Assembly: GCA_029249225.1 (NCBI GenBank) | Contig: JAQWHT010000131.1 | Location: forward strand, 1 to 46,494 | DNA length: 46,494 bases | Direction: 5' to 3' | Source of the DNA: Flavobacteriaceae bacterium | GTDB lineage: Bacteria > Bacteroidota > Bacteroidia > Flavobacteriales > Flavobacteriaceae | Shown here: piece after piece, positions 13,880-27,572 of the stretch | Numbering within the stretch: the stretch's first letter is position 1 | Layout of the letters: every line of letters starts with the position of its first letter | The notes under the pieces: model-generated | What the model was told of the DNA's origin: nothing | The model's input: the letters and a program-made list of their open reading frames with translations, nothing else | Databases searched by the model: none | Made by a program: the position numbers and the translations under genes

Positions 13880-14800
13880 ATGAAAAACTTTAAATGGGAA
13901 GGTGTGATGCCTGCGATCACAACACAATTTGATGAAAATCATCAACTAGACCTGAATGCTTTTAAAAAAAATTTAGATGCTCAGATAGCTGCAGGAGTTC
14001 ATGGGATAATTTTGGGAGGAACTTTGGGAGAGGCAAGTACCATAAGCGCATCAGAAAGGAGTGAATTATTAGCCACAACCATTAAAAGAGTAGAAGGTAA
14101 GATTCCAGTAATAATGAACATTGCTGAACAAGCAACTGAAGATGCAATTGAATTGGCTCAAAAATCAGAACGTGAAGGAGCAAGTGGGTTGATGTTACTC
14201 CCTCCAATGAGATATAAAGCAACAGATACAGAAACAGTTGCTTATTTTGCTGCTGTTGCGGAACATACCAATCTCCCTATTATGATTTACAACAATCCAG
14301 TTGATTATAAAATTGAGGTAACCCTAGATATGTTTGAACAACTTTCGAAATATAAAAATATTAATGCGGTTAAAGAGTCAACACGTGACACTACCAACAT
14401 TACAAGAATGATCAATTGTTTTGGTGATCGGTTCAAAATTCTTTGTGGTGTAGATACAATTGCTATGGAATGTTTGATGATGGGTGCAACTGGCTGGGTT
14501 GCAGGATTGGTTGATGCATTTCCAGAAGAAACAGTGGCAATCTATACCTATTGTAAAGTAGGCGAATGGGAAAAGGCACGTCAGGTATTTCGCTGGTTTT
14601 TACCCCTATTGGAATTGGATATTTCTCCACAGCTAGTTCAAAACATAAAATTATGTGAAGTTGCTACAGGACTGGGAACAGGCTTTGTTAGACCACCAAG
14701 ATTACCTCTTACTGGCAATGCTCACGAAGAGGTACAAAAAATCATCAAAAAAGGTTTAGAAACAAGACCACAAAACTTGGATTACAAAAAATACCAATGA
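13880..14800 (+). CDS. DapA-family 1-pyrroline-4-hydroxy-2-carboxylate deaminase (predicted)
   Basis: A 306-residue class I aldolase of the dihydrodipicolinate synthase/N-acetylneuraminate lyase superfamily. The Schiff-base lysine is Lys165 (NAVKES) and the catalytic Tyr is Tyr137 (IMIYNNP). The substrate loop reads GGTLGEAS instead of the GGTTGES of true DapA, which argues against lysine biosynthesis. The next three genes supply the other steps of hydroxyproline breakdown. The likely reaction is therefore conversion of 1-pyrroline-4-hydroxy-2-carboxylate to 2-oxoglutarate semialdehyde and ammonia. That assignment rests on context and on knowledge of the pathway. The stop overlaps the next ATG by 4 bases (ATGA). 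Confidence 0.87.
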   Translation: MKNFKWEGVMPAITTQFDENHQLDLNAFKKNLDAQIAAGVHGIILGGTLGEASTISASERSELLATTIKRVEGKIPVIMNIAEQATEDAIELAQKSEREGASGLMLLPPMRYKATDTETVAYFAAVAEHTNLPIMIYNNPVDYKIEVTLDMFEQLSKYKNINAVKESTRDTTNITRMINCFGDRFKILCGVDTIAMECLMMGATGWVAGLVDAFPEETVAIYTYCKVGEWEKARQVFRWFLPLLELDISPQLVQNIKLCEVATGLGTGFVRPPRLPLTGNAHEEVQKIIKKGLETRPQNLDYKKYQ

Positions 14801-16338
14801 TAAGCGGAATGAATTTAGTAGCAGGCAAATGGGAGGACAACTCAAATGCAGAAATATTTCAAACGAGAAATCCCAATACGGATTTACTTCTTCCTGAAGA
14901 ATTTCAGCAATCAACAACAGATCAAGTGAACCGATCTGTAAGCGCAGCATCGGATAGTTTTGAATTTTTTGCTCATACGAGTTTTAAAAATCGAATACTT
15001 TTCTTAAAGACAATTCAAGAAGAATTACTTTTAGCACAATCTGAAATTACAGCCACCTATCAACAAGAATCTGCATTACCTGAAGGACGAGCAAATGGGG
15101 AGTTTCAGAGAACCCTTGATCAGATACAGTGCTTTGTTGAATTGTTAGAAGAGGGGTCTTTTATTGACGCTAGTATTCACACACAAGGACCTGATCTGAG
15201 AAAAATGCTTTACCCTATTGGTCCTATAGTGGTTTTTGGAGCTAGTAATTTTCCCTTAGCATTTTCTACTGCAGGAGGAGACACAATTTCAGCCTTTGCT
15301 GCAGGTTGTCCTGTTTTAGTGAAAGCACATCCTTACCATGCTGGAACGAGTGAACGGGTTGCTGTTGCAATCAATAAAGCAATTGAAAAATGTAAATTAC
15401 CCTCAGGAATTTTCTCTCATTTAGGTGGTCAATCTCATTCAGTAGGGAGTCAGCTGGTTTCTCATTCTTTGATTAAAGGAGTTGGTTTTACAGGAAGTTT
15501 TTCGGGAGGGAAAGCACTTTATGACTTGGCACAAAAAAGAGAGGAGCCCATTCCAGTTTTTGCTGAAATGGGAAGTATTAATCCTATTTTTATTTTGGAA
15601 AACAAATTAAAAACAGATTCAAATTTGGCAGAAGGGTTGGCTCAATCAGTTATTCTAGGTACAGGTCAGTTTTGTACAAATCCAGGGATAATCGTTGTGT
15701 GTGATCCCTCAGATAGTGTTGATTTTGCAAAAGAAGTAAGTGATGCCATTGAGGGCGCAGAATTGCCACCTATGGTACACAAGAATATTCAAAAACAATA
15801 CGACAAACAGCTAAGAAAAATAAATGAGGGAGAACAAGTTGATGCCCTTTTTTTTGCTAAAAGTTGTAAAGCAGCTGTAGGATTAGTTCAAGCGTCAAAA
15901 TTTTTAACCGATTCGAGCTTGGCTGATGAAGTGTTTGGTCCTTTTACATTGGTTGTTAAATGTAAATCAAATGATGAAATGTTAAAAGTAGCGGCTTCAA
16001 TGGAAGGACAACTGACTACAACTATTTTAGGAGAAAATTCAGATCAAGAAGTTTCGAAGAAACTTCTTTCAAAATTACAGTCTAAGGTAGGACGGATATT
16101 ATTTCAAGGAGTTCCAACTGGTGTTGCTGTAACCCAACCTATGCAACACGGAGGTCCATATCCAGCTTCTACTGATAGCAGATTTAGTTCAGTGGGGACC
16201 GATTCGATCTATCGTTGGCTTCGACCCGTTGCTTTTCAAGATTGTCCCAATGAATTACTTCCTGATGCTTTAAAAAATGAAAATCCTTTAGGCCTAGAAA
16301 GAAAAATTGATGGAAGAATAATTTCTTCAGCTTTATGA
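14797..16338 (+). CDS. 2-oxoglutarate semialdehyde (2,5-dioxovalerate) dehydrogenase
   Basis: A 513-residue aldehyde dehydrogenase. The catalytic Cys293 lies in LGTGQFCTNPG and the general base Glu257 in FAEMGSINP. These versions of the motifs, with FGASNFPLAFSTAGGDT for cofactor binding and KAHPYHAGTSE, are typical of the NADP-type 2-oxoglutarate semialdehyde dehydrogenases of sugar-acid and hydroxyproline pathways. It would oxidise the product of the preceding deaminase to 2-oxoglutarate, which enters the TCA cycle. The start may be MISGMN or the inner Met5. The gene overlaps both neighbours by 4 bases (ATGA), so the operon is tightly coupled. Confidence 0.92.
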   Translation: MISGMNLVAGKWEDNSNAEIFQTRNPNTDLLLPEEFQQSTTDQVNRSVSAASDSFEFFAHTSFKNRILFLKTIQEELLLAQSEITATYQQESALPEGRANGEFQRTLDQIQCFVELLEEGSFIDASIHTQGPDLRKMLYPIGPIVVFGASNFPLAFSTAGGDTISAFAAGCPVLVKAHPYHAGTSERVAVAINKAIEKCKLPSGIFSHLGGQSHSVGSQLVSHSLIKGVGFTGSFSGGKALYDLAQKREEPIPVFAEMGSINPIFILENKLKTDSNLAEGLAQSVILGTGQFCTNPGIIVVCDPSDSVDFAKEVSDAIEGAELPPMVHKNIQKQYDKQLRKINEGEQVDALFFAKSCKAAVGLVQASKFLTDSSLADEVFGPFTLVVKCKSNDEMLKVAASMEGQLTTTILGENSDQEVSKKLLSKLQSKVGRILFQGVPTGVAVTQPMQHGGPYPASTDSRFSSVGTDSIYRWLRPVAFQDCPNELLPDALKNENPLGLERKIDGRIISSAL

Positions 16339-17345
16339 AAAAAACAGAGCGTATTATTTTTGATTGTATTGATGGATATACTGCTGGAAATCCTGTACGT
16401 CTGGTAAAGTCTCCTAGTCCTGAATTAAAAGGCTCCAATATGGGGGAGAAAAGAGTTCATTTTGTTGAAGAATACGATTGGATTAGAACCGGATTGATGT
16501 TTGAGCCCAGAGGACATGATATGATGAGCGGAAGTTTTTATTACCAACCTCAGAATCCTAAAAATGATGTTGGTATTTTGTTTATCGAAACAAGTGGGTG
16601 TTTACCCATGTGTGGTCATGGATTGATTGGGGCACTTACACTACTTTTAGAAGAGAATTTGATCGAGCCGATACAAGAAGGTAAACTAAGAGTTGAAACT
16701 CCAGCGGGCCTTGTTATTGCTGAATATCAAAGACATGGACCTAAAGTTCAGTCTGTTAAGTTCACTAATGTCCCTGCATTTTTATCAGCAACGGATCTTC
16801 AAATTGAGTGCTCAGATTTAGGAGTTCTTTCCGTTGATGTCGCTTATGGAGGGAATTTTTACGCCATCATTGATATTCAAGAAAATTTTAAAGGGATTAA
16901 AGAATACACTGCAAGTCAGTTAATCACCTGGAGCAGGGAATTACGTTCTCAGATCAACTTACTACACCATTTTGAACATCCTTTAGACAATAAAATTAAA
17001 GGCTGTAGTCATGTGTTATGGGGTGGAGAGCCAACCCAAGAGGGTGTTACCGCTAGTAATGCTGTCTTTTATGGAGATAAGGCTATTGATCGATCACCAT
17101 GTGGTACTGGTACTTCAGCTAGGATGGCTCAGTTGTTTGCTAAAGGAAAATTAAAAGTTGGCGATGCTTTCATTCATGAGAGCTTTATCGGGTCTATATT
17201 TAAAGGGAGGGTGGAAGCTGTGACCAAGGTTGGATCACATCAAGCAATATTACCGAGTATTCAAGGGAGTGCACGAGTTACAGGATATAATAAACTAATT
17301 TTAGACCCAGACGATCCTTATGTCAAAGGATTCCAAGTGTTATAA
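16335..17345 (+). CDS. 4-hydroxyproline 2-epimerase (proline racemase family)
   Basis: A 336-residue proline racemase-fold enzyme. Both catalytic cysteines are present: Cys93 in MCGHG and Cys256 in RSPCGTGTS. Having both indicates an epimerase or racemase; the related trans-3-hydroxy-L-proline dehydratases replace one of them with Ser or Thr. The family members next to a DapA-type deaminase and an FAD oxidase act on trans-4-hydroxy-L-proline, giving cis-4-hydroxy-D-proline, the first step of the pathway. The 4-base overlap upstream and the 2-base gap to the dehydrogenase place it in the same operon. No signal peptide is visible. Confidence 0.92.
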   Translation: MKKTERIIFDCIDGYTAGNPVRLVKSPSPELKGSNMGEKRVHFVEEYDWIRTGLMFEPRGHDMMSGSFYYQPQNPKNDVGILFIETSGCLPMCGHGLIGALTLLLEENLIEPIQEGKLRVETPAGLVIAEYQRHGPKVQSVKFTNVPAFLSATDLQIECSDLGVLSVDVAYGGNFYAIIDIQENFKGIKEYTASQLITWSRELRSQINLLHHFEHPLDNKIKGCSHVLWGGEPTQEGVTASNAVFYGDKAIDRSPCGTGTSARMAQLFAKGKLKVGDAFIHESFIGSIFKGRVEAVTKVGSHQAILPSIQGSARVTGYNKLILDPDDPYVKGFQVL

Positions 17346-17347
17346 TT

Positions 17348-18604
17348 ATGAGCCAAAAGAATGTTGTTGTTATCGGTGGTGGGGTTGTAGGTTTGTGTAC
17401 AGCATACTATCTTTCTCAAGAAGGGCATCAAGTGACAGTCGTAGATAAGAGTAATCTTAATTCTGGCGCCTCTCATGTAAACGCGGGCTACCTTACTCCC
17501 AGTCATATTATTCCGATGGCTGCTCCTGGGATGATTTCTAAAGGATTTAGATGGATGTTTAAAGCTTCTAGTCCTTTTTATATTAAACCTCGTTTGGATA
17601 GTGACTTAATTCGATGGGGGATACGGTTTATGAAATCTTGTACTCCTGTTCATGTTCAAAGGTCGATGAGGGCCATACTCGACATCAATTTGTTGAGTAA
17701 AGAGCTTTATGTTGAAATGCAACAAAACACCTACTTTGATTTTCATTTGGAAACTAAAGGTCTTTTAATGGCCTTTAAAACATCTAAAGCTGAAAAAGAA
17801 GAAGCTGAGGTAGTTTCCCGAGCAAAAGATCTTGGTTTAAAAATAAAACAATTGAGCCCAGAAGAAGTTCTGAAAAAGCAACCTGGAATAGCTATGGATA
17901 TTGCTGGCGCTTTTTGGTATGAAAGCGATGCACATAGTACACCGGAATTATTTATGCAAAATTTAATTGGGGTATTAAAGAAAAAAGGAGTGCAATTTAT
18001 TTTAGAGCAAGAGGTTACGCATTTTAAATCAAAAGGCAATCAGATTCAATCAGTACACACCCAAAAACAAGAGATTCGGGCAGATGAGGTGGTTATTGCC
18101 AGCGGTGCTTGGTCCGAATCTCTCCTTAAACAATTGGGAATTCAACTTTCTGTTCAGGCAGGGAAAGGATATAGACTGAATCTCAATCAACCAACAGCAA
18201 TCACTGTACCAGCTATATTATTGGAGGCTAAGGTCGCTGTAACACCTATGCAAGGGTTTACACGATTTGGGGGGACAATGGAACTTTCAGGGATCAATCA
18301 TAAAATTAATTCAAGACGAGTTTCCGCCATTGCTCAAGCGGCATCAGATTATTATCCTCAAGTAAATGTTACTCAAGAAGCTATTGATAGTGTTGAGTGT
18401 GGTTTACGTCCTCTTTCACCGGATGGCTTACCTTTTATTGGTCGACATTCAAAATGTAAAAATATAGTTTTAGCTACTGGGCATTCAATGATGGGGTGGA
18501 GTTTAGGACCAGCCACAGGGAAACTAGTTTCTGAGTTGATTTCCAATCATGATACTTCAATTTCTATTGACCATTTTGCTCCTGAGAGAGTTTATGGCAA
18601 CTAA
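17348..18604 (+). CDS. FAD-dependent D-amino acid dehydrogenase (probable cis-4-hydroxy-D-proline dehydrogenase)
   Basis: A 418-residue DAO/DadA-family flavoprotein. The N-terminal VVVIGGGVVGLCTAYYL is the FAD-binding Rossmann fold; the C-terminal GLRPLSPDGLPFIGRH and ATGHSMMGWSLGPATGKL blocks are the family's second FAD-contact region. In this operon the expected reaction is oxidation of cis-4-hydroxy-D-proline to 1-pyrroline-4-hydroxy-2-carboxylate, with electrons passed to the respiratory chain. A general DadA role on D-alanine is the alternative, but the neighbours favour hydroxyproline. It is the last gene of the operon and its stop overlaps, tail to tail, the stop of the barrel protein gene by 4 bases. 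Confidence 0.9.
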   Translation: MSQKNVVVIGGGVVGLCTAYYLSQEGHQVTVVDKSNLNSGASHVNAGYLTPSHIIPMAAPGMISKGFRWMFKASSPFYIKPRLDSDLIRWGIRFMKSCTPVHVQRSMRAILDINLLSKELYVEMQQNTYFDFHLETKGLLMAFKTSKAEKEEAEVVSRAKDLGLKIKQLSPEEVLKKQPGIAMDIAGAFWYESDAHSTPELFMQNLIGVLKKKGVQFILEQEVTHFKSKGNQIQSVHTQKQEIRADEVVIASGAWSESLLKQLGIQLSVQAGKGYRLNLNQPTAITVPAILLEAKVAVTPMQGFTRFGGTMELSGINHKINSRRVSAIAQAASDYYPQVNVTQEAIDSVECGLRPLSPDGLPFIGRHSKCKNIVLATGHSMMGWSLGPATGKLVSELISNHDTSISIDHFAPERVYGN

Positions 18605-19461
18605 AAATTAAAGAAAATACCTCCTGAAAAAGTTTGTGTTTTATAGATTACCCTTCCAAAAAGAGGATGTGTTACTGTGGCAGAAACACCCCATTTTTCA
18701 CCAAGATTAAAAGCCATTTCCCCCCCTAGAATAACACTTTCTACATTATTTGCAAAAATACTCCCATTAGAATTTGAGGCATCTAATGTACCGTTGTACA
18801 AAGGTTTAATCCAATGCAAACGTGAAAGGATTAAAAGTTTATTATTAATAAATTGGGTGCCTGTTTCAAAATAACTATGAATTTCATCAGAAAATCCTTT
18901 AGATCTGTTATTAATACCAAAATAGGATTTCAAATAGAAATTTTGTTTACCAATACCATATCCACTCCCTACGCTAAGTTGGATTAGTTGATTGAACTCT
19001 CCATCTCCAGTTTGATAACTGCCGTCAGTTCCACCATGAGCGTTTCCTGATGGAATTCCAAGGGTTACTGTGGATGAAAGCACCCATTTCCCCTCTGTTT
19101 TAAAACCGTATTCAAACCCCAAATTTATGTCACCAAAACCGTTGTATTCTTGCCTCGGTTCATAAATTTTCCCATTAGTTTTTGAAACTTGAGCAAACTG
19201 ATAATTCTTGACAAGAAAAGGAATGTAGGCAATTAAATTAACTTTTTTAAAAAACCCTAATTGAGCGTAGAAACTACTAATAAAGAGCCCTCTTGTGGCA
19301 TTGGGGTCCACTTTTCCCTGATCGGTATAGTGTTCGTTGGCAAGTAATGACCAGCTCCCAATTTTGTAATAGCCCTTCCCTTTTTCATTAATCCATTGCG
19401 CTTGGGAATAGTAAAAGGCGAATAGTACTATCATTGTAAAGTATAAGTTATTCTTCTTCAT
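18601..19461 (-). CDS. Predicted outer-membrane beta-barrel protein
   Basis: A 286-residue exported protein with a signal peptide (MKKNNLYFTMIVLFAFYYSQAQ, cleavage probably after AQA/Q). The mature part is made of alternating amphipathic strands rich in Gly, Tyr, Phe and Asn, and ends in GIFFNF. A terminal Phe is the usual outer-membrane insertion signal for barrels. I do not recognise a specific family; it resembles uncharacterised transporter-like barrels of Bacteroidota (12-14 strands by eye). Its ATG overlaps by one base the stop of the DM13 lipoprotein gene (TAATG), so the two are translationally coupled and may work together in the envelope. Confidence 0.75.
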   Translation of the reverse strand: MKKNNLYFTMIVLFAFYYSQAQWINEKGKGYYKIGSWSLLANEHYTDQGKVDPNATRGLFISSFYAQLGFFKKVNLIAYIPFLVKNYQFAQVSKTNGKIYEPRQEYNGFGDINLGFEYGFKTEGKWVLSSTVTLGIPSGNAHGGTDGSYQTGDGEFNQLIQLSVGSGYGIGKQNFYLKSYFGINNRSKGFSDEIHSYFETGTQFINNKLLILSRLHWIKPLYNGTLDASNSNGSIFANNVESVILGGEMAFNLGEKWGVSATVTHPLFGRVIYKTQTFSGGIFFNF

Positions 19462-20471
19462 TAATCATAAATTTTAGCTTCACCAACTTTGACGTTAAAC
19501 GGTTTACACCAATACAATAAATACTGATAATCCATCAATCCAATTGAAGTGGGAAGTTGATACGAATGAGCACCACTAAAAACACTAACTGCTCCAATTT
19601 CAAAAGCTTGTTGTGTTGTGTTGAGATTGTTTGATAAATAAACGTAAAGTCCAGGAAGGGTAATTGAAGCTTTATAGTCTTCACCCAAACTCAAAAGAAG
19701 TCCGTCATCTGTTTCAGATAAAGTAAAACTTCCCTCAAGTGTGTATCCGCTTTTAGTTTCTAGATTTCCAGAGTAAGAGGTTTTGGTTTCCATCATTATA
19801 GCAATCACCTCGATATAATTTTGAACAAGGATAGTGGTGTCAGAAACAACAACAGAAACAGTTACAGTTGCTACACCTGATGTGATTGCAGTCACTAAAC
19901 CGTTTTCATCCACTTCGAGTATGGTATCATCCGAGCTGCTCCAGTTTAATTCAGGTGTAGCGTTTTCATTTTCACCTTGAAAATCTACTTCAAATTGATA
20001 ACTGGTTTGTTCAAAGATTTCAGAAATACTGTTTGTTATGTCAAGTGTTGGAGTCCTTGACGCGGAAATTGTATTATCATTTTCTTCGGTGTATGGGATC
20101 ATTGTTTCAGGATCAGGATTCAATATGACATTACTGATTACAGAAATACTAATTTTAGCTTCAATGGTTGTGCCCTCCTCTGAAACGGTCTGAGCGGTTA
20201 GTTGAGCTGTGCCTTCCATTTTAGTTGTAGCTTTTCCGGTAGTTTCTATGAAAATAATTTCAGGATTTGAACTAGTCCACTGTATAGATGCATCTTCTAC
20301 ACGGTCACCGATATTGTTAAAATAGAAAGCATTAAGTTTAAATGAGGCTCCAACAGGTGCTTTTTCGATTGTAGTTGTGATTCTTAGAGTTGGTGGCACA
20401 TAATCCTCTATTAAATCTATTCCACTACAGGACAGGAACAATAAAAAAACAAAAGAAATGAGGGGCTTCAT
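19461..20471 (-). CDS. Lipoprotein with two Ig-like (BIG2) repeats and a C-terminal DM13 domain
   Basis: A 336-residue lipoprotein: the signal peptide ends in LFLSC with Cys15. Two bacterial Ig-like repeats follow, at residues ~25-115 (ASIQWTSSNPEIIFIE...GTAQLTAQ) and ~135-225 (ELNWSSSDDTILEVDENGLVTAITSGVATVTV). From ~235 to the end the pattern GSFTLSE.DDGLLLSLGEDYKAS...LYVYLS...YQYLLYWCKPFNVKVGEAKI matches the DM13 domain, whose near-invariant Cys (Cys322) has been proposed to act in redox or metal chemistry. It lies 62 bp after hemB and is coupled to the barrel gene. A promoter-like sequence sits just upstream, so it may be expressed with or apart from the heme genes. The function is unknown. 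Confidence 0.78.
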   Translation of the reverse strand: MKPLISFVFLLFLSCSGIDLIEDYVPPTLRITTTIEKAPVGASFKLNAFYFNNIGDRVEDASIQWTSSNPEIIFIETTGKATTKMEGTAQLTAQTVSEEGTTIEAKISISVISNVILNPDPETMIPYTEENDNTISASRTPTLDITNSISEIFEQTSYQFEVDFQGENENATPELNWSSSDDTILEVDENGLVTAITSGVATVTVSVVVSDTTILVQNYIEVIAIMMETKTSYSGNLETKSGYTLEGSFTLSETDDGLLLSLGEDYKASITLPGLYVYLSNNLNTTQQAFEIGAVSVFSGAHSYQLPTSIGLMDYQYLLYWCKPFNVKVGEAKIYD

Positions 20472-20499: not shown

Positions 20500-20530
20500 T
20501 AAATATAAGTTATTTTTACGACTGGTACAA
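20500..20530 (-). promoter_or_regulatory. Possible promoter for the DM13 lipoprotein-barrel pair
   Basis: On the minus strand a TTG (20528-20530) is followed after 20 bases by TATATTTA (20500-20507), which differs from the -7 consensus TAnnTTTG only in the last base. The spacing fits Bacteroidota promoters. It lies between the hemB stop and the lipoprotein ATG at 20471, about 29 bases from the start. Confidence 0.35.
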
Positions 20531-20533
20531 CAC

Positions 20534-21505
20534 TTAGATTAGTTTGGTGGCTTCTTCGGCAAAATAGGTTGCGATGAGTTGTGCTCCTGCTCGTTTAAAA
20601 CTAAGTAATTGCTCCAGCATAACCTGATCGTGATCCAGCCACCCTTGCGCTGCTGCGGCTTTGAGCATGGCATATTCTCCACTTACTTGATAGGCCGCTA
20701 TAGGAGTTTGAATGTTGTTTTTTAAATCTCTGATGATGTCTAAGTAGGCCAAGCCTGGCTTGACCATGACAATATCTGCTCCTTCATTGATATCTCGTTG
20801 AGTTTCTTCTAAAGCTTCTTGTCGATTTCCAATATCCATTTGATAGGTTTTTTTATCTCCAAATCCAGGTGCTGAATCTAAAGCATCCCGAAAAGGACCG
20901 TAAAAAGCCGAAGCATATTTTGCACTATAACTCATAATCATAGTGTCATGAAATTGAGCATCTTCCAGTTGGTTTCGTATAGCTAATACACGACCATCCA
21001 TCATATCACTTGGAGCCACTACATCTGCACCTGCTTGAGCATGCGAAAGTGCCATTTCTGACAGCACAGTTACGGTAGGGTCGTTAAGAACTTTTCCTTT
21101 TTCAACTATACCGTCATGCCCAAACGAGGAATAGGGATCTAAAGCTACATCCGTCATGACAATCATTTCAGGGACCGCATTTTTGATTGTTTTTATTGCA
21201 CGTTGCATTAAACCAGTTGGATTTAAAGCCTCTGTACCCTTATTGTCTTTTAAATGATCTGCAACTTTGACGAAAAGTAAAATTGCTTTTAAATCTTGTT
21301 TCCAAAGGGAGACAGCTTTGGCTGCAAGCAAATCCAATGACAATCTGAAATATCCGGGCATGGAGGGGATTGCTTCTTTGAGTTGTTTGCCTTCAACGAC
21401 AAACAAGGGAACGATAAAATCATTGGGAGTAAGATGATGCTCTTGGAGTAAACTCCTCATACTGGATGAATTCCTTGTTCTTCTATTACGATTTAACGGA
21501 TACAT
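20534..21505 (-). CDS. hemB: Porphobilinogen synthase (delta-aminolevulinate dehydratase)
   Basis: A 323-residue cytoplasmic enzyme that condenses two 5-aminolevulinate molecules to porphobilinogen. The two Schiff-base lysines are Lys196 (MSYSAKYAS) and Lys249 (VMVKPGLAYLD). The usual RMRR-like N-terminus (RNRRTRNSSSMRSL) and the FYGPFRDA block are present. The metal-site loop (TDVALDPYSSFGHDG) has no cysteine triplet, so this is the magnesium-type rather than the zinc-type enzyme. It follows the CPA1 antiporter gene by 5 bases and so belongs to the heme operon. Confidence 0.96.
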   Translation of the reverse strand: MYPLNRNRRTRNSSSMRSLLQEHHLTPNDFIVPLFVVEGKQLKEAIPSMPGYFRLSLDLLAAKAVSLWKQDLKAILLFVKVADHLKDNKGTEALNPTGLMQRAIKTIKNAVPEMIVMTDVALDPYSSFGHDGIVEKGKVLNDPTVTVLSEMALSHAQAGADVVAPSDMMDGRVLAIRNQLEDAQFHDTMIMSYSAKYASAFYGPFRDALDSAPGFGDKKTYQMDIGNRQEALEETQRDINEGADIVMVKPGLAYLDIIRDLKNNIQTPIAAYQVSGEYAMLKAAAAQGWLDHDQVMLEQLLSFKRAGAQLIATYFAEEATKLI

Positions 21506-26362: not shown

Positions 26363-27572
26363 TTCTCTGAAAATCGGTCTGGGTTTAATTCAAAAACATC
26401 TCTAAGCAAATGTACTGTTTGATCTGCTTTGTGAGGATTCGATCTGAGGTAGGCAGCAACTTGACCCATGATTTTCTGTGCCATAAATTCGGTGTCTGCT
26501 TCAGGAATGAGTTCCGAGCTTATAGGAGAGGTTTTGATTTTTTCTCTAAAAGCTTTTAGTGTTGGAATGTATTTTCTGTGAGTCAACCATTCGATATACT
26601 CAAGTTTTACAGAGGCAAGAATCTGTTCAGCTTGGGGGATGAATTTTTTTCTTCTTTCAAAAGTAGCATCTGTTATTTGCGAAAGTTCATCCAAATGAAT
26701 CACTTGCGTATTCGGTCTATCATTCAATTCAGGATCAACATTTCTTGGGAGCGAAAGATCTAAAATAAGAAGTGGCTTTTTGTTGTAAATCAAGTCTGAA
26801 GTAACAGTCGGTTTTTGAGAACTCGTAGCGACGATAAGAACATCACTATCTCTTATGGAAGCGGTTAATGCTCCAAAAGGTTTTACTTGAACTGGAAATT
26901 TACCAGCAATTTTTTCTGCCTTTTCTTGTGTTCTATTAATCAGAACAATGTGGTCATTCTGACTGTGTTTGACTAAATTTTCACAGGTGTTGGCACCAAT
27001 TTTTCCTGTCCCAAAAAGGAGAATATTTTTTTGTGCAATATCTGGCACATTCTTCAAAATGTACTGGACGGATGCGAAAGCAACTGACGTTGCTCCGCTT
27101 GAAATTTGTGTTTCAGTTTTGATCCTTTTACTTGCTTGTATGACCGAATTTGTAAGGCGCTCCAAATTCCCTTGCGCTAATCCCATTTTCTTAGAGCGAT
27201 AAAAACTTTGTTTGATTTGGCCAATTATTTCAAAATCTCCCAATATTTGGCTCTCAAGGCCTGTTCCTACACGAAAAACATGATTGATCCCAATCTCACT
27301 TTCTAAGGAGTAACCAATTTGATTAAATTCTTTTTGGGTTCCCTGAGAATGTGTACAGAGTAAATCCACTAAAATTGAATCAGCAGTACTCCAAGCGTAA
27401 ATTTCTGTCCGGTTACAGGTGTTTATGATAAGTAAATCTTTGATTCCTTTTTCTTTGGCTTCTAGAAAAAGAGCATGGAGTTGAGAGTCACCTAAACTAA
27501 ATGTCCTCTAAGGTCTATTGAGGCAGTTTTATGACTCACACCAACTACATAAAATTTCTTGTTTTCGGTCAA
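26359..27572 (-). CDS. hemA: Glutamyl-tRNA reductase, apparently split by a one-base deletion
   Basis: This enzyme reduces glutamyl-tRNA to glutamate-1-semialdehyde, the first step of C5 heme synthesis. From 27507 down to 26359 one frame is open and encodes residues ~24 to the end, with the catalytic Cys in IINTCNRTEIYA, NADPH-binding LLFGTGKIGANTCENL and the C-terminal dimerisation helix. The N-terminus (MTENKKFYVVGVSHKTASIDLRG) is upstream in another frame from a TTG at 27572 and ends at a TAG at 27492-27494. Adding one T to the CATTTAG run (27497-27503) joins both into a normal ~404-residue protein. A 336-residue frame starting at 27369 would lack the catalytic Cys and is not the true gene. 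Either a sequencing error or a real mutation; the other heme genes are intact. Confidence 0.85.

Follow-up and report, generated by a model that had tools for sequence, protein, structure and literature searches.

A conserved gene pair of a DM13 lipoprotein and a predicted outer-membrane barrel, found behind hemB in a Flavobacteriaceae genome

The closest described counterpart of the gene pair reported here is the SaePQRS system of Staphylococcus aureus: SaeP, a surface lipoprotein with a DM13-like C-terminal part, forms a complex with the DoxX-family protein SaeQ and the kinase SaeS, and a redox function is speculated upon in the available part of the source (PMC7189620). SaeP is also the DM13 protein for which we found experimental results. 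A second point of reference is provided by the COG4313 channels, which are implicated in the uptake of hydrophobic molecules; in the accessible portion of the structure paper neither 'DM13' nor 'lipoprotein' occurs (PMC4493636). Here we describe two adjoining genes on a 46,494-nucleotide stretch of a Flavobacteriaceae genome (contig JAQWHT010000131.1 of assembly GCA_029249225.1; hereafter the window): one encodes a lipoprotein with a C-terminal DM13 domain, the other a predicted 12-stranded outer-membrane barrel. Both DM13 proteins and COG4313-like barrels have been described before, and their conserved pairing is new as far as the open-licence literature shows: among the matches listed we found no paper on a DM13–barrel pairing, in agreement with an earlier reading of this DNA from its letters alone (the sequence-only reading), which had taken the pair to be undescribed. 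Among the matches listed from the same literature there was likewise no biochemical test of DM13 electron transfer in a bacterium; that role is stated only in the name of the Pfam family.

The likeness to SaePQRS lies in a DM13 lipoprotein, putatively at the surface, encoded beside a membrane partner, and some divergent Bacteroidota pairs also have a response regulator and a kinase downstream. SaeQ, however, is a DoxX-family membrane protein whereas the partner in the window is a predicted outer-membrane barrel, the window lipoprotein adds Big_2 repeats, and the neighbours are hemB, a Na/H exchanger gene and a hydroxyproline-type cluster rather than DoxX and two-component genes. DM13 is also shared with Knickkopf-type insect proteins, although theirs, in the accessible part of the description, is a eukaryotic arrangement of tandem DM13 plus DOMON. 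The CXXCH cytochrome of a multi-haem porin–cytochrome conduit is likewise missing from the pair, CXXCH being absent from the translations of both window proteins. The explanation that we prefer, tentatively and with slightly less than even confidence, is that of a thiol or redox lipoprotein that acts jointly with a 12-strand channel of its own and is situated behind hemB in one lineage.

A conserved pair and an invariant cysteine

Details of the two genes and their parts are given in Table 1. Pfam detects Big_2 in two stretches of the lipoprotein (35.5 bits against a cut-off of 22.8) and DM13 (PF10517) at residues 245-334 (26.7 bits against a cut-off of 25; 28.7 in the genome-wide search), which bears out the proposed composition of two Ig-like repeats followed by a C-terminal DM13 domain, with Cys322 as the DM13 cysteine. 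By translation, Cys322 is the only cysteine of the mature protein besides the lipid-bearing one at position 15, where we take the residues ending at that position to be a lipobox. The TAATG junction that had been read as translational coupling is present in the sequence: the stop codon TAA of the DM13 gene (19463-19461) and the ATG of the barrel gene (19461-19459) have one base in common. The barrel protein had been assigned to no recognised family, and indeed neither Pfam nor NCBIfam gives a match to it at E up to 1; 12 strands are predicted. No second DM13 was found in the 2.1-Mb, 133-contig genome, which is about 90% complete.

In all 16 relatives found by sequence the barrel gene lies 3′ of the DM13 gene (frameshifted or broken in L007, L008 and L016). 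A wider sampling, from which, as from all adjacency counts, the window's own locus was left out, places DM13 directly upstream of the barrel at 30 of 40 loci and at 27 of the 31 with barrel matches of at least 200 bits, and the arrangement reaches beyond the window's family: it holds for 13 of 15 loci of the family sample (barrel at least 300 bits), 12 of 15 of the phylum sample (137 bits or more) and 5 of another 10 loci from the class sample. The 40 loci comprise neither barrel matches under 137 bits nor the remnants in G214 and G074, nor weak class-sample matches without a retrieved locus, two in G787 excepted. These adjacency counts place the pairing beyond chance; judged from sequence comparison, the DM13–barrel pair is a real and old module and a conserved unit, and the sequence-only reading, which had taken the two genes as a pair, is borne out in this. 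In two divergent loci (L132 and L134) the gene order is swapped and both genes still abut. The region N-terminal to DM13 is variable, ranging from one or two Ig domains up to a Thr-rich linker, and in the alignment the second Big_2 domain is absent from shorter orthologues. Two named isolates, Winogradskyella aurantiaca IMCC20180 and Flagellimonas alvinocaridis SCR12, carry the pair.

The DM13 cysteine is present in 15 of 15 aligned sequences and in all 53 DM13-like rows of a broader locus set, in which some loci occur twice. Across 23 diverse DM13 domains (one of them, L085, represented by its C-terminal part only) one column alone is invariant, that of the cysteine in the C-terminal strand, and the alignment contains no conserved His-x-His pair. 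Loss of this cysteine from most orthologues, which had been named as grounds for abandoning the sequence-only reading, was seen in none of the rows examined. The invariance is somewhat favoured by the manner of searching, because relatives were sought with peptide patterns, one of which includes the motif around this cysteine, and because DM13 profiles score its presence favourably.

Table 1. Positions of the gene pair, its domains and its upstream neighbour in the window (aa, amino acids; bp, base pairs; ORF, open reading frame; pLDDT, predicted local distance difference test)
Feature	Coordinates	Strand	Basis
DM13 lipoprotein gene, 336 aa	19461..20471	-	ORF; Pfam Big_2 and DM13 above cut-off; orthologues
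Signal peptide and putative lipobox, residues 1-15, with Cys15 the putative lipid-modified residue	20427..20471	-	Cys15 invariant in 15/15 aligned sequences
First Big_2 Ig-like domain, about residues 24-114	20130..20402	-	Pfam; Ig-type structural matches, model residues 25-114
Second Big_2 Ig-like domain, about residues 138-226	19794..20060	-	Pfam (residues 151-207); alignment
DM13 domain, about residues 229-336	19464..19787	-	Pfam; model pLDDT about 88-92; SOD5 likeness, Z 9.8
Cys322 codon, within YWCKPF	19506..19508	-	Sole invariant column in 23 diverse DM13 domains
TAATG stop/start overlap of the DM13 and barrel genes	19459..19463	-	Sequence
Predicted 12-stranded outer-membrane barrel gene, 286 aa	18601..19461	-	ORF; structure model; fold matches; DM13 adjacency
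hemB, upstream neighbour, not counted in the module	20534..21505	-	Pfam ALAD; NCBIfam
TATATTTA, promoter-like TAnnTTT[G/A] element in the 62-bp hemB–DM13 gap	20500..20507	-	Present in 9/12 gaps

Predicted folds of the barrel and of DM13

The AlphaFold2 model of the barrel consists of 12 long strands (pLDDT 74.5; predicted template modelling score 0.73). The first strand starts at residue 30, the sole listed helix (residues 4-11) lies in the signal peptide region, and residues 1-27, a segment checked for N-terminal occlusion of the COG4313 type, have pLDDT under 50. The top Foldseek matches are FapF and the COG4313 channel 4rl8, and in VIA-align three structures tie at Z 21.8, namely KdgM (169 residues), FapF (226 residues) and 4rl8 (241 residues, 2.9 Å), the last with the widest coverage. 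By sequence neither the barrel nor DM13 has a solved relative, the sole extra match being a nanobody at E 0.39, and both folds are given here as predicted by the models. Among 40 homologues, an identity of at least 85% is reached by 21 of the 90 residues in predicted outer loops and by 28 of the 164 in strands, but by none of the 18 in periplasmic turns; this assignment assumes both termini to be periplasmic.

With the COG4313 (Phenol_MetA_deg) channels Pput2725 and SphA the window barrel shares 12 predicted strands and a similar size, whereas it has no match to their profile PF13557; a divergent relative beside another DM13 gene (L161) does pass (24.2 against a cut-off of 22). Both this relative and the hydrophobic-molecule uptake proposed for COG4313 channels in the accessible part of PMC4493636 speak for a channel accompanied by a stabilising or substrate-capturing lipoprotein, serving a hydrophobic molecule without redox chemistry and with a cysteine that is structural. 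We regard this as unlikely, given the missing profile match of the window barrel itself and given that an internal disulphide cannot explain the invariance of the cysteine, the mature lipoprotein having no second one besides that which bears the lipid. The amyloid transporter FapF also has a 12-stranded barrel and is among the top fold matches, and Ig-like lipoproteins are common surface structures. Even so, a FapF-like function of the pair in secretion or surface assembly, in which the lipoprotein would be the cargo or a factor for assembly, is very improbable: the 286-residue barrel, whose first strand begins so close to the N-terminus, has neither the N-terminal coiled coil nor the helical plug, and no amyloid genes were noted nearby.

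The model of the lipoprotein (pLDDT 86.5) comprises the Ig domains and the DM13 region. Residues 229-336 resemble the Cu-only SOD5 of Candida (Z 9.8, root-mean-square deviation 2.8, 104 residues), in a list swamped by Ig-type rows and with the domain modelled within the whole protein. Homology of DM13 to Cu/Zn SOD by sequence was considered and rejected: hhalign of 101 DM13 domains against 25 SodC sequences returned a score of 19.5 and a probability of 2.4, a column shuffle did equally well in 1 of 30 cases, and Big_2, used as an unrelated control, reached 20.2. Because the profile match is not significant and is equalled by two controls, the likeness is a fold lead only; DM13 differs from SOD5, moreover, in having one invariant cysteine and no conserved His-x-His.

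The place behind hemB

As the sequence-only reading had it, the pair lies directly behind hemB on the same strand, 62 bp separating hemB (ALAD, 475.5 bits) from the DM13 gene. Further upstream on that strand are hemA, hemC, hemE, hemF, hemD and the Na/H exchanger gene, with hemH on the opposite strand. Of the 16 close relatives, 12 have hemB immediately upstream of the pair; another gene intervenes in L012 (beta-lactamase family) and L014, the pair precedes hemB in L009, and L013 has no homologue of the window's heme genes within 11.6 kb. In the family sample hemB adjoins the pair in 5 of 15 loci (G057, G160, G046, G231 and G061), three more (G116, G206 and G252, two of them on short contigs) share other flanking genes of the hem locus with hemB not seen, and the remaining 7 are located elsewhere, where the fetched DNA shows no gene homologous to the heme genes of the window. 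Such homologues are found at none of the 15 strong phylum-sample loci (7-11.5 kb fetched each). With such homologues missing from the fetched DNA of 7 family-sample loci and all phylum-sample loci, gene order indicates that the pair is not bound to them and that the heme association is confined to part of the window's family.

Loss within the window's genus points the same way. Across 38 genomes, many of them incomplete, DM13 was found in 11, the barrel in 11 and both in 9, with remnants in each of the 4 genomes in which only one of the two genes was found; hemB was found in 35. At 30 hemB loci of the genus (a set that does not include the loci of G002, G009, G022, G024 and G037) hemB is followed by the pair in 8 and by a remnant in 3; in the other 19 its immediate neighbour is dadA, a gene of the hydroxyproline-type cluster. 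Presence or absence of the pair changes at least seven times on a hemB tree of 36 rows, in which all six outgroup rows are coded as having the pair. In G017 and G008 (loci L027 and L028, about 1490-1710) the first about 67 DM13 codons run into the last barrel codons, with a similar TGGAAA-type sequence, by eye, at the junction; the two genomes have possibly undergone recurrent deletion at microhomology. Because it has been lost repeatedly while hemB stays, the module is dispensable and is not needed for heme synthesis. The claim that the pair is tied to heme synthesis is thus not supported as it was put, in view of the 7 family and 15 phylum loci with no heme-gene homologues in the fetched DNA and of repeated loss beside a retained hemB, while the observation behind it, the conserved unit, the cysteine and the novelty all stand.

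The gap between hemB and the DM13 gene contains TAnnTTT[G/A], which we take to resemble the Bacteroidota -7 element, in 9 of 12 cases against a chance of 0.24 each, a figure that is only a guide given that the gap rows are related; in 8 it lies 24-36 bp before the start codon. The stricter TTG-spacer-TAnnTTT occurs in 4 of 12 gaps (chance 0.05 each; the bounds of two gaps are slightly off). Recurrence of the element suggests that the pair may have its own promoter behind hemB. Between 18400 and 21600 there is no terminator-like site, and promoter-like sites are near chance level.

The position behind hemB might nonetheless reflect handling of heme or porphyrin, with DM13 binding the compound and the barrel exporting or importing it; apart from the 12 close relatives with hemB directly upstream, 3 more have it elsewhere in the hem locus. 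Looser links come from a set of 59 DM13 loci, of which 7 include this barrel. A cytochrome-c assembly gene lies upstream of DM13 in 9 (L059, L060, L063, L066, L067, L069, L077, L078 and L086; called by PF01578 in L086 and by BLAST cluster in the others), with an MscL-like gene between the two in two loci. TANGO2 proteins act in heme trafficking, and TANGO2-family genes occur in three DM13 clusters (L097, at 49.3 bits; L095 and L109, by motif) and, at 52.3 bits, directly before a DM13-less barrel in G725, where a YHS-like gene follows the barrel (27.9 bits, below the cut-off of 30.3); a YHS-like gene is also near DM13 in L097. A gene for a cytochrome c with one CXXCH directly follows one related pair. 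These neighbours are hints only. All 9 cytochrome-c assembly loci belong to one family, in the family sample, and because this is shared synteny we do not use it as proof of a heme function; a HAD-like gene, identified by eye and unrelated, occurs there about as often, at 8 loci. The DM13 cysteine has been guessed to bind heme. With homologues of the window's heme genes missing around all 15 phylum-sample barrels and 7 of the 15 family-sample ones, and with the pair repeatedly lost where hemB is kept, heme or porphyrin handling is improbable, to about the same degree as the plain channel discussed above. A DM13-less barrel in L252 (258-3798) stands in a same-strand run with TANGO2-family, ATP-grasp-like and YHS-like genes, relatives of which surround DM13 in L097 and L109.

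Other neighbourhoods and a proposed role

Neighbours elsewhere offer a further alternative, in which lipoprotein and barrel would be the outermost links of a signalling chain and would inform a two-component system of redox or respiratory state, much as SaeP and SaeQ do for SaeS in the accessible part of the description (PMC7189620). In three genomes (G480:C76, G377 and G691) DM13, barrel, an OmpR-type regulator and a HisKA kinase follow one another on one strand (identified by Pfam in the first two and by BLAST cluster in G691), and in a fourth, G407, two-component genes are nearby on the other strand. These pairs are divergent, however, at 47-77 bits by the barrel profile, and a fifth of the same subtype (G787, L272) has no adjoining two-component genes; nor does any adjoin the window pair or, on the same strand, the strong orthologous pairs. 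The adjacent regulator may, besides, simply control the pair. A surface sensor is on balance rather unlikely, if somewhat less so than the other alternatives.

The preferred thiol or redox lipoprotein draws on neighbours at other loci. In G397 (L160, 4061-6003) a lipoprotein-like MsrA–MsrB protein (PMSR 216 bits, SelR 157.5 bits) is encoded 17 bp upstream of the barrel, in the place of DM13, and other DM13 genes adjoin genes for DoxX (L095 and L097), YceI (L095) and MsrB (L091). At 6 of the 59 DM13 loci (L090, L094, L102, L111, L115 and L116) there is an adjoining outer-membrane-like protein of about 300-320 aa, with no Pfam match in the two that were scanned (L090 and L102); this is perhaps a second envelope partner of DM13. 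It is from the name of the DM13 family, from SaeP and from the MsrAB, DoxX, cytochrome c and two-component neighbours that we infer a redox role.

We propose a self-contained outer-membrane module. The lipoprotein would be anchored through Cys15, with the Big_2 repeats as a stalk of variable length and DM13 at its tip presenting one invariant thiol. It would be made together with, and probably act on, the 12-stranded barrel of COG4313/FapF shape, many of whose conserved residues sit in predicted extracellular loops; surface exposure and physical contact of the two proteins are both presumed in this scheme. The thiol, either free or binding a metal or heme, would most likely take part in a step of redox chemistry or ligand binding, the substrate being a small molecule or a protein that the barrel admits, exports or reports. 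Because it can be lost while the heme operon stays, the module would be a separate envelope module and not a part of heme synthesis, and behind hemB it would be a passenger or a co-regulated tail.

Several findings weigh against this proposal. In the window pair itself there is neither a redox partner nor a CXXCH motif nor the signature of a metal site, and the redox neighbours accompany DM13 genes of other subfamilies or barrels that have no DM13, at few loci each. The quality of the barrel model, by its pLDDT, is moderate. At 10 of the 40 barrel loci there is no adjacent DM13 (G186, G252, G466, G397, G725, G910, G931, G1039 and one locus each in G674 and G787); in G252 a DM13 domain is found elsewhere, within a 1235-aa protein (L185). 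A related barrel family, L046-L058 (13 loci), has no DM13 within flanks of 1.5 kb.

The members of that family, at 87-100 bits, are paralogous barrels and were not counted as orthologous. At several of their loci the barrel has, by eye, a glutamyl-tRNA-synthetase-like gene on one side and a gene for a large membrane protein on the other, and the PF13557 score of L046, 18.2, is below the cut-off of 22.

A bolder version of the proposal would have DM13 as a redox domain with one thiol, derived from an SOD-like fold, and the pair as a diderm counterpart of SaePQ, an outer-membrane device for sensing or relaying the redox or heme state of the surface that has been wired to the heme operon in one marine lineage; we consider this speculative and distinctly improbable. 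Whichever account is adopted, a two-gene module with an invariant cysteine and natural loss among close relatives offers a clean system in which to study DM13 function. It also gives an unnamed barrel family a function-linked partner, and bears on whether DM13 works at the outer membrane.

Two further features of the window deserve mention. The frame of hemA is apparently interrupted at 27369-27500 (minus strand): the open ORF matches glutamyl-tRNA reductase from model position 70 on, and the N-terminal part is in another frame. In the relative L002 hemA is one continuous frame, and the break in the window is either a real frameshift or an assembly error. Convergent on the DM13–barrel pair, on the plus strand at 13880-18604, is the hydroxyproline-type catabolic cluster, with genes for a DapA-like protein, an aldehyde dehydrogenase, a 4-hydroxyproline epimerase (530 bits) and a DadA-like protein.

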